A DNA stretch of 64,000 nt. Source: Acidobacteriota bacterium. Lineage in GTDB: Bacteria; Acidobacteriota; Blastocatellia; Pyrinomonadales; Pyrinomonadaceae. A program made the position numbers and the translations under genes. How positions within the stretch are numbered: position 1 is the stretch's first letter; each line of letters begins with the position of its first letter. Under the pieces are notes generated by a model that was not told the DNA's origin, ran no database searches, and was given only the letters and a program-made list of their open reading frames with translations. The stretch covers positions 1 to 64,000 of the forward strand of contig JAOAPX010000074.1 in the NCBI GenBank assembly GCA_025463125.1, read 5' to 3'. Positions 9,111 through 11,444 of this stretch are shown piece by piece.

Positions 9111-9515
9111 CTATTTTGCCAAACGAAGTTTGAAAAAACCGTAAAACTGTAGATAGCAGCTCAGCATAGTCGTGACGATTAAAAGTGTCATCGGCAGGAA
9201 ACGAAATGTTTCCGGCAGCACGACGCCCAGAGTTTGCTTGAACATATAGCCAGCCAGAACCGCGAAAATAACAATAAAGGTTCTGCCTAAAAGCCAGTTG
9301 CCGAACGGCTCTCTGTTGTTGGCTATTAAAACATACGGCAAGATTAACAACATCAGAAGCGTCGTTAATAATAAAACCGTATCGAGTGTAAACGCCCCAA
9401 AGTTTTGCCCGAATTCGACCGCTAAAAAGAACAGCACAAAAGTCGTATCGACTACAAATCCTTTGTCACAATTCGTTTCCGCCTCTATTGATTCAACGCG
9501 CGCAAATGGCTTCAT
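9111..9515 (-). CDS. Small membrane protein of unknown function
   Basis: A 134-residue protein with no recognised family. Three hydrophobic segments are visible: about residues 43-65 (rich in Leu, TVLLLTTLLMLLILPYVLI), about 79-95 (TFIVIFAVLAGYMF) and about 107-127. The first 40 residues are only moderately hydrophobic, and the C-terminus is short and basic (KLRLAK). It lies 70 bases downstream of the XRE regulator gene and is probably on the same transcript. The context suggests it belongs to the regulator's unit, but nothing in the sequence gives a role. Confidence 0.7.
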   Translation of the reverse strand: MKPFARVESIEAETNCDKGFVVDTTFVLFFLAVEFGQNFGAFTLDTVLLLTTLLMLLILPYVLIANNREPFGNWLLGRTFIVIFAVLAGYMFKQTLGVVLPETFRFLPMTLLIVTTMLSCYLQFYGFFKLRLAK

Positions 9516-9585: not shown

Positions 9586-9978
9586 TTATTTTCCCGAGTT
9601 GCTGAACTGCGAATAAGCCACGCGGAAAAGCTCTGACAGGGCTTTTGCCGTTTCGGGCGATAAATTTTTATCCGCGCGCAGATGCGCTTCGACAATTTCA
9701 GGCGTCGCTTCGTGCGGGTAATAAACCACCGCTTCGACATCTTCCTGATTGCGGTTTTTCATCACGCGGTCAACCGGCATATCCAGCCAGTTTGTCAATC
9801 GCGCGATGTTGTCAGCATCGGGTTTTCCGGTTCCGTTCTCGATTCTGGAAAGCGTCGAAGCCGACACGTTTGTTACGTCCGCGACATCGCGAAGACTTAA
9901 TTTCAATTCTTCGCGACGACGCTTGATTGCTCTTCCGAGTTCGATTGTGTTTATAAGAGTTTCGTTTTTGTAAGCCAT
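9586..9978 (-). CDS. XRE-family helix-turn-helix transcriptional regulator
   Basis: A 130-residue DNA-binding protein. Residues 10-68 form a Cro/cI-type HTH: LGRAIKRRREELKLSLRDVA, then SASTLSRIENGTGKPDADNI, where the SxSTLSRIENG part is the recognition helix region. The C-terminal 60 residues are not a recognised domain. An AGATGAGGAAATT ribosome-binding region precedes ATG 9978. It is divergent from the SWIM-Rad52 gene; two matching palindromes in the shared intergenic region are good candidates for its operators. Repression of the divergent gene and of itself is inferred from operator position, not shown. Confidence 0.9.
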   Translation of the reverse strand: MAYKNETLINTIELGRAIKRRREELKLSLRDVADVTNVSASTLSRIENGTGKPDADNIARLTNWLDMPVDRVMKNRNQEDVEAVVYYPHEATPEIVEAHLRADKNLSPETAKALSELFRVAYSQFSNSGK

Positions 9979-10077: not shown

Positions 10078-10093
10078 GTTTCACACTTGCAAC
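10078..10093. promoter_or_regulatory. Candidate operator O1 (imperfect palindrome)
   Basis: GTTTCACACTTGCAAC matches the perfect palindrome at 10116-10131 at 12 of 16 positions and is itself a near-palindrome (GTTTCA against GTTGCA on the other strand). It covers the -35 hexamer of the predicted plus-strand promoter. Its centre is 38 bases from the second operator. Confidence 0.5.
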
Positions 10094-10115: not shown

Positions 10116-10131
10116 GTTTCATAGATGAAAC
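10116..10131. promoter_or_regulatory. Candidate operator O2 (perfect palindrome)
   Basis: GTTTCATAGATGAAAC consists of two perfect 7-base half-sites around a 2-base centre. It directly follows the -10 hexamer and covers the predicted start point, which is the classical position for a repressor site. The divergent XRE protein is the obvious candidate to bind it. Confidence 0.6.
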
Positions 10132-10199
10132 GAGGGCGTTTTATTCTTTACTTAAACTAAGGAGTATCGACAGTTCGAGTAAGTTCCAAGGAGAAGATA

Positions 10200-11444
10200 A
10201 TGGCAGTAGCGGTAGCAGATAAAAATACAACGGAAAAACGCGAGAAAAGAGCTAAATCGATCGCGGCGATGGGACTTGTCAATCGCGAAGGCGACAAGTT
10301 CACGGTTTCGACGCCGAGTCTTCGCGGTCGTCAATCGGTTTACGATGTCTGGCGAGATGAAAACGGGAAAATTCGTTGTAATTGTTTAGAGTACGAAGAA
10401 GCGTCTGTTACGGATCCGGGATTTCGTTGCGAACACATTTTAGCGGTGAAATACGCTCTTGTGTCGAAGAATACCGAATCGGTCACGAAACAGCCGCCTG
10501 TAAATAACGACTTTACGGCGAAAGCGGAAGTTAATTCACAGGCAGTTTCAACAGACAAAAGCACAACTGAGTCACGCGAGTCCACGCGCGGCGAACAGAA
10601 GACTGAACGAGTCGCGGCGGATGTTTCAGCAAAAGGACAGGCTGAAGCAAACGAAGCCGAAACTCTTCAACTTGCAGATACACAAGGAGACAAAAAAGTG
10701 AAACAAGAAATTTATAAACAAGTTTCGCCGGAAGCGGCGGAAGCGGCGACAACAGAAACTGCTGTTGAAACAATCGAGGTTGCGAATAACGTCTTGAATT
10801 TTACGACAACATTAAAAGAATTACGCAAGAATGTCGATCCGAACCTGATCAAGCAGCGCGAAGGCTGGCGCGACCGCAACGGAAATACGCATTACGTCGA
10901 TTACGTCGAATGGCACACGGTTGCGGACATTTTGGATGAAACCGCGCCGAACTGGTCGCATACGATTCGCGACATCAAACAAATCGGCGATATCTTCACC
11001 GTCACGGTCGCAATCATGATCGACGGCATTACGCGCGAAGGCATCGGAACCGGCAGCGCCGAATCCGAACTCGGAATCAAGAAAGCCGAACACGATGCTC
11101 TGAAACGAGCCGCCGTAAAATTCGGTATCGCCCGCGATCTATACAAAAAGGAATCGGACGTTATCGAACGAGAAGGCGCGGTTCCGGCGCAAAATGACGG
11201 CGGCTTTCCGGCAAACCCGATTGCCCGGAGCTTGTCTGATTTAGTCACGGCGAAACAGCTCGGAATGATTCGCGCGATCGCCCGCGAAATGGGAATCGAT
11301 GCCGACGAAGAATGCAATAATGTCGTGCAGTGCAAAACCGATGAGCTTTCCAAAAAAGCCGCTTCGACCTTTATTCAGCACTTGCAGGACATGCAAAAAG
11401 GACAACAGTCGAATTCGGCGCAGCCGATGCGCCGTGCCGGTTAA
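10200..11444 (+). CDS. SWIM zinc-finger / Rad52-family single-strand annealing protein fusion
   Basis: Predicted recombination mediator of 414 residues. Residues 60-79 have the SWIM zinc-finger pattern C-x-C-x14-C-x-H (C60, C62, C77, H79). A low-complexity Gln/Glu/Ser/Thr/Ala-rich linker follows (about 90-195). Residues 197-317 resemble the Rad52/Rad22 annealing domain: YVEWHTVADILDETAPNW, a central strand-rich region, EGIGTGSAES, then KAEHDALKRAAVKFG. The C-terminal part (about 343-400: TAKQLGMIRAIAREMGID) is helical and resembles tails of phage annealing proteins. Rad52-like proteins anneal complementary single strands; SWIM modules in Sws1/Shu-type proteins support recombination. The fusion, the divergent XRE gene and the operators suggest a regulated, perhaps phage-derived, repair function. 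Confidence 0.82.
   Translation: MAVAVADKNTTEKREKRAKSIAAMGLVNREGDKFTVSTPSLRGRQSVYDVWRDENGKIRCNCLEYEEASVTDPGFRCEHILAVKYALVSKNTESVTKQPPVNNDFTAKAEVNSQAVSTDKSTTESRESTRGEQKTERVAADVSAKGQAEANEAETLQLADTQGDKKVKQEIYKQVSPEAAEAATTETAVETIEVANNVLNFTTTLKELRKNVDPNLIKQREGWRDRNGNTHYVDYVEWHTVADILDETAPNWSHTIRDIKQIGDIFTVTVAIMIDGITREGIGTGSAESELGIKKAEHDALKRAAVKFGIARDLYKKESDVIEREGAVPAQNDGGFPANPIARSLSDLVTAKQLGMIRAIAREMGIDADEECNNVVQCKTDELSKKAASTFIQHLQDMQKGQQSNSAQPMRRAG

Follow-up and report, generated by a model that had tools for sequence, protein, structure and literature searches.

Background

Of the Rad52-type proteins that bacteria encode on their chromosomes, those outside Deinococcus are little understood. The best-characterised bacterial example, the Deinococcus protein DdrA, binds 3′ ssDNA ends and showed no annealing when tested (PMC515370), and in the same genus the XRE-family protein DdrO is the repressor of ddrA, recA and ruvB, acting via a palindromic box (PMC8072749). 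Phage Sak4 is a RadB/Rad51-paralog-like protein, and is an ATP-dependent annealase that works with its SSB on ssDNA (PMC5928155). In the Shu complex of eukaryotes, SWIM proteins work with Rad51 paralogs, and CxC..CxHxxA is given as the signature of the Shu2/SWS1 family (PMC6316741).

Here we analysed a gene of an acidobacterial genome of the family Pyrinomonadaceae whose product carries both a SWIM-type motif and a Rad52-type domain, a combination for which we found no description in the literature searchable here. The gene lies in a window of 64,000 nt, by which we mean the whole stretch of DNA analysed. We considered it rather probable that its product is a single-strand annealing protein owned by the host, a bacterial analogue of Rad52 from that superfamily, and that it belongs to a recombination and DNA-damage regulon; the SWIM finger would serve the protein as a docking module.

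Organisation of the locus

The features of the locus are the following, with window coordinates, strand and the evidence used:

9586-9978, minus strand: divergent regulator of the XRE/HTH_3 type, 130 aa, which may act on the boxes (Pfam; synteny)
10078-10093, no strand: second operator box, GTTTCACACTTGCAAC, 38 bp from the proximal box (genome-wide pattern search)
10116-10131, no strand: proximal operator box, GTTTCATAGATGAAAC (sequence; genome-wide pattern search)
10188-10193, plus strand: ribosome-binding site AAGGAG (sequence)
10200-11444, plus strand: gene of the putative SWIM-Rad52 annealing protein, 414 aa (ORF with ATG start; orthologs)
10227-10487, plus strand: N-terminal SWIM-containing domain, residues 10-96 (AlphaFold2 pLDDT about 93-97 at residues 11-90 in the full-length model; second model)
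10377-10436, plus strand: SWIM ligands C60, C62, C77 and H79, as CNC-x14-CEH followed by A82 (46 homologs; Pfam PF04434)
10488-10781, plus strand: variable linker, predicted to be disordered, residues 97-194 (pLDDT <50 at 97-176 and 186-190)
10806-11156, plus strand: Rad52/Rad22 annealing domain, residues 203-319, signature GIKKAEHDALKRAAVKFG (Pfam; Foldseek; PHROG Erf-like)
11190-11417, plus strand: C-terminal helical domain, residues 331-406 (pLDDT about 95-98 at residues 341-400; matches to a Sak4-type ATPase and phrog_11717)

The AlphaFold2 model of the full-length protein contained three confident domains, with disorder between the first two. A preliminary description of this DNA, made from the sequence, had proposed that one bacterial protein carries a SWIM finger and a Rad52 domain joined by a disordered linker: both domains are real by profiles and conservation, and the low pLDDT of the linker agrees with the disorder proposed. 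That description had missed the third domain, the paired upstream operator and the divergent XRE regulator. No PDB sequence was matched, whether the search was made with the whole protein or with profiles of the family and of the N-domain.

The SWIM finger

Residues 60-79 had been read as C-x-C-x14-C-x-H, a numbering that proved exact. The four ligands, together with E78 and A82, were found without exception in 46 different homologs; apart from the three ligand cysteines, the 414-aa protein has only C372 and C378. By residue shuffling of the window protein, the probability of obtaining a CxC-x5..25-CxH pattern was about 1e-4. The Pfam SWIM profile (PF04434) gave a divided answer to the profile search that had been suggested: the window protein itself, matched at residues 49-87 (E=0.0023), scored 17.8 bits and hence fell below the curated cut-off of 19.6, which ortholog L034 passed with 22.7 bits, as one among the orthologs tested individually. 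When 60 members of the family were scanned, a sample that includes 19 SWIM-less orthologs, 35 matched the profile at E<0.05, the best at 4.5e-5.

According to DSSP, the N-domain has in both models a layout of strands, the CxC, a short helix and the CxH opening the last helix, with a further helix ahead of the beta strands. Foldseek with the N-domain alone returned no PDB match at E<0.001. Residues 12-87 could be aligned with a DDE transposase of another genome of the family, G034, over the SWIM domain of that transposase (33% identity, E=4e-7 for a single comparison), which itself scores 28.7 bits with the Pfam SWIM profile. On profile and conservation, a SWIM-type motif is present at the N-terminus, and zinc binding is predicted.

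The Rad52 core and the C-terminal domain

The Rad52-type domain, previously placed at about residues 197-317, was located by the Rad52_Rad22 profile (PF04098) at residues 203-319, well above the cut-off (39.9 bits vs 20.3, E=5.2e-10), and the profile matched all 60 family members scanned. Within this core, matches were also found to PHROG families of Erf-like and SSAP proteins, phrog_1097 (E=6e-8) and phrog_3290 (E=1.7e-5). The expected Rad52 fold, a beta sheet packed by helix, was recovered as well, since Foldseek, run with the AlphaFold2 model, matched the Rad52 part to human RAD52 (E=2e-8) and to Mgm101.

The C-terminal domain (about residues 331-406) resembles the C-terminus of a Sak4-type AAA_24 ATPase of genome G003, with 40% identity over 67 residues (E=4e-8, for a single comparison), and it also matches phrog_11717. 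Because of these two matches, the domain looks like a module that annealing proteins of the Rad52 and Sak4 types have in common.

Distribution and history of the gene

Orthologs were found across Pyrinomonadaceae and in other Blastocatellia, which are soil bacteria, whereas the Rad52 domains outside Blastocatellia, in a sample of 297 Acidobacteriota genomes, were without SWIM; the fusion, for which a survey across acidobacteria had been proposed, is hence found in Blastocatellia and nowhere else in the sampled phylum. Among the plasmid, phage and IMG/VR relatives searched, none had a SWIM in the same ORF.

The divergent XRE gene adjoins the annealase gene in 47 of 48 oriented loci, and the other kept neighbours are a DAHP synthase upstream and M16 peptidases downstream. 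The annealase gene is a stable gene of the host: it lies on the chromosome, keeps its synteny and has been passed on vertically in Blastocatellia. In the gene tree, drawn with a midpoint root for display only, the SWIM-less orthologs form mostly one derived clade nested within the SWIM-bearing ones. The SWIM is thus most simply regarded as ancestral in the family and lost mainly once, and, since one clade of orthologs is without it, it is not essential to the core function. Five orthologs that had at first been miscounted as SWIM-less (L055, L068, L073, L088 and L100) each reach a contig end and were discarded as losses. A split SWIM gene beside the SWIM-less orthologs was also considered and rejected, as these loci gave no match at E<=1 to a profile made from the SWIM domains of the family.

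As regards the phage or plasmid origin that the preliminary description had put forward, a recent acquisition disagrees with the chromosomal, syntenic and vertical inheritance, but a phage-type origin is plausible, because viral contig L176 (IMGVR_UViG_3300009177_000006) encodes a SWIM-less relative that is 49% identical, the C-terminal domain included. Its placement in the tree is unsettled. A SWIM-like ORF also lies on this contig, separately and some 2.2 kb upstream, and there are QueC-like and ParB-like genes as well. On two other viral contigs, L183 (3136-4016) and L184 (4442-5322), only 3 bp separate a Rad52-type gene from the stand-alone ORF of 90 aa, with a SWIM motif, that comes after it. 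Overall, three viral SWIM ORFs beside an SSAP, from two independent phages, were counted against a shuffle mean of 0.47, which is suggestive only.

Operator boxes and the candidate regulon

The region between the XRE and annealase genes contains, before the latter, two GTTKCA-N4-TGMAAC palindromes. The box was found as the proximal sequence given above. In the rest of the genome, near-matches to it were seen upstream of recA, of ruvB and of the gene for a Sak4-like ATPase, and at a topoisomerase IB locus, and the box was then refined by aligning recA promoters. In the 3.79 Mb genome the refined pattern has nine exact sites, vs one for the reversed control pattern. Two of the nine are in the annealase promoter and two before the Sak4-like gene; recA, ruvAB, a second ruvB and a gene transcribed divergently from topoisomerase IB have one each, and the last site is in a coding sequence, so that eight of the nine are at recombination-type promoters.

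In the family, the box was exact in 23 of 26 recA promoters and present with at most one mismatch in 25, figures that are partly by construction, because the refined box came from recA promoters themselves; those for the Sak4-like, ruvAB and lexA genes are not. With at most one mismatch it occurred in 28 of 30 Sak4-like promoters, 19 of which have two boxes, and in 25 of 28 XRE/SSAP intergenic regions (21 exact). The three box-less regions belong to genomes in which either no SSAP was found or the C-terminal domain was the only match. Single boxes are present before ruvA in two other genomes.

Two further sets of genes were noted in this survey. A second, small and stand-alone Rad52/Erf-like protein of about 140-154 aa (L173, at G000:C78 about 10978-11373, and L161) is encoded downstream of a methylmalonyl-CoA-mutase-like gene, and in genome G006 a small stand-alone Rad52-type paralog has its own box in front. 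At L140 (G000:C185) there are a second ruvB paralog and a gene for a 180-aa protein, the latter divergent from topoisomerase IB, each with a recA-type box.

From these promoter sequences, the shared box looks like the mark of a candidate DNA-recombination regulon, so far undescribed, which it would define for the whole acidobacterial family; among the carriers of the annealase gene there is a strain with a name, Pyrinomonas methylaliphatogenes K22. A response of the boxes to DNA damage may be presumed from the gene list only. The role of recombination mediator proposed for the protein in the preliminary description gains support from its co-regulation with recA, ruvAB and the Sak4-like ATPase. 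This regulon and the link with Sak4 are the main additions of the present analysis.

Candidate box-binding factor

We considered the adjacent XRE protein as the candidate regulator of the boxes. It is single-copy in 28 of 31 family genomes, with 65-92% identity. Autoregulation of the XRE gene was rejected as a proof that XRE binds the boxes: in G003, G029 and G030, three genomes in which the search gave no intact SSAP, the region upstream of XRE is box-less, hence it is the annealase, and not XRE, that the boxes go with. A small membrane-like protein without Pfam match is encoded downstream of XRE, at 9111-9515 on the minus strand of the window, and its relatives can be recognised in G014 and G018 at the corresponding position.

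LexA is disfavoured as box binder. In fact, none of 28 lexA-like genes had a box upstream with at most one mismatch, and in G009, a genome 99% complete, the LexA match is marginal (E=5.5e-4), yet an exact box precedes ruvA. A link with an IrrE/ImmA metallopeptidase was set aside too: the sole M78 (ImmA/IrrE-like) peptidase found, L134 (G000:C155), is encoded elsewhere in the genome, and its canonical HExxH appears to read EEICH.

The Sak4-like ATPase

The Sak4-like ATPase of the window genome (L136/L304, G000:C36:1004-2038) has two boxes 39 bp apart in front of its gene; its assignment to Sak4 relies on a phrog_124 match (E=1.2e-8) over the first 100 residues. The gene was found in 36 of 119 family genomes and in none of genus g9, of which the twelve members surveyed all have SWIM-less orthologs. 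It accompanies the SWIM-SSAP in 17 of 25 genomes vs 0 of 13 SWIM-less ones (Fisher p = 6e-5, a naive value that ignores phylogeny, the SWIM-less genomes amounting to about two independent losses).

Four genomes with the Sak4-like gene and no detected SWIM-SSAP (G001, G004, G024 and G031) are either incomplete or genomes in which a contig end truncates the gene; they were counted among the surveyed genomes, while SWIM status covers the genomes of the SSAP survey. In G014, G017 and G018, which have no Sak4-like gene, the Rad52 signature is degenerate. As eight SWIM-bearing genomes are without the Sak4-like gene, the partner of the SWIM may be other than this ATPase. By analogy, the parallel between the Sak4-like/SWIM pair and the Shu proteins with Rad51 paralogs is suggestive.

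Discussion

Under the reading that we prefer, the gene would be induced together with recA, and the Rad52 core would oligomerise on ssDNA, as coats or rings, in order to anneal complementary strands or to protect ssDNA. The helical domain at the C-terminus would mediate interactions, as a module that phage-type annealing proteins have in common. The linker would act as a flexible tether for the N-terminal SWIM finger, to which a partner would dock; the co-regulated Sak4-like ATPase is the most plausible one, otherwise DNA or RecA. In this scheme we infer that the protein anneals strands and binds zinc, that DNA damage induces the gene and which partner the SWIM has, and annealing, in particular, cannot be assumed, given that DdrA was without it when tested (PMC515370).

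This last point leads to the reading in which the protein, like DdrA, would bind 3′ ssDNA ends and shield them from nucleases instead of annealing them, with the SWIM adding DNA binding. DdrA too is Rad52-like and encoded on the chromosome, and its gene stands with recA and ruvB under the XRE-family DdrO in a similar layout (PMC515370, PMC8072749); we nevertheless regarded this alternative as unlikely. For the SWIM part only, and compatibly with our reading of the core, the domain could be a general DNA-binding or structural add-on, taken from a transposase-type SWIM domain and without a specific partner, as the alignment of residues 12-87 with the transposase of G034 and the loss of the domain in one clade would suggest. 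On the contrary, the four ligands persist in the 46 homologs, even in those only about 40% identical, although the linker varies freely, and there is the linkage with the Sak4-like gene; we judged the add-on a serious possibility, though one that falls somewhat short of even chances.

It is instead quite improbable, in our opinion, that we are dealing with a recently captured phage annealing protein of Sak/Erf/Rad52 type, in which the SWIM would be the remnant of a phage module with no integrated host role. The Erf-like and SSAP matches, the viral relative on L176 and the SWIM-motif ORFs on L183 and L184 speak in its favour, but the chromosomal synteny, the vertical tree, the ordinary housekeeping neighbours in the family and the recA-type operator kept in the promoter do not agree with it.

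A more ambitious version of the preferred reading is that of a bacterial counterpart of Rad52-plus-Shu, in which the SWIM-Rad52 annealase would dock the Sak4/RadB-like ATPase and both would be co-induced with recA and ruvAB by a LexA-independent DNA-damage regulon under the adjacent XRE. Taken as a whole, we hold this version to be a rather long shot. Independently of it, a vertically inherited Rad52-type protein that has a SWIM finger, a recA/ruvAB operator and a link with a Rad51-paralog-like ATPase would offer a simple bacterial system for the role of SWIM domains beside Rad51 paralogs, which is still open for the Shu complex.

Comparison with known systems

The annealing-domain profile and the fold of Rad52/Rad22, human RAD52 and yeast Mgm101 match the window protein, which has no match to the C-terminal half of eukaryotic Rad52 and differs in being bacterial and in having the extra N-terminal SWIM finger and C-terminal helical module. 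Sws1/Shu2 have the same SWIM signature, CxC..CxHxxA (PMC6316741), but Sws1 is a separate eukaryotic protein without a Rad52 domain, and its likeness to the window protein is in the motif only. The Shu complex works with Rad51 paralogs, and in the regulon proposed here it is the Sak4-like (RadB-like) ATPase that shares the operator.

Deinococcus DdrA was likened by description, being, as the window protein is, a chromosomal bacterial Rad52-like protein; in the DdrA paper a SWIM or zinc finger is unmentioned (PMC515370), while the window protein has a SWIM motif. The DdrO regulon, with an XRE repressor and ddrA, recA and ruvB, has a layout like that of the regulon proposed here, in which the XRE regulator is a candidate. 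The RDRM box of Deinococcus differs from GTTKCA-N4-TGMAAC. Finally, the phage Sak, Erf and Sak4 proteins have in common with the window protein the Rad52-type core (phrog_1097, phrog_3290) and, through the Sak4-type ATPase, the C-terminal module, whereas the genes described here are chromosomal, scattered and share their operator with recA and ruvAB.
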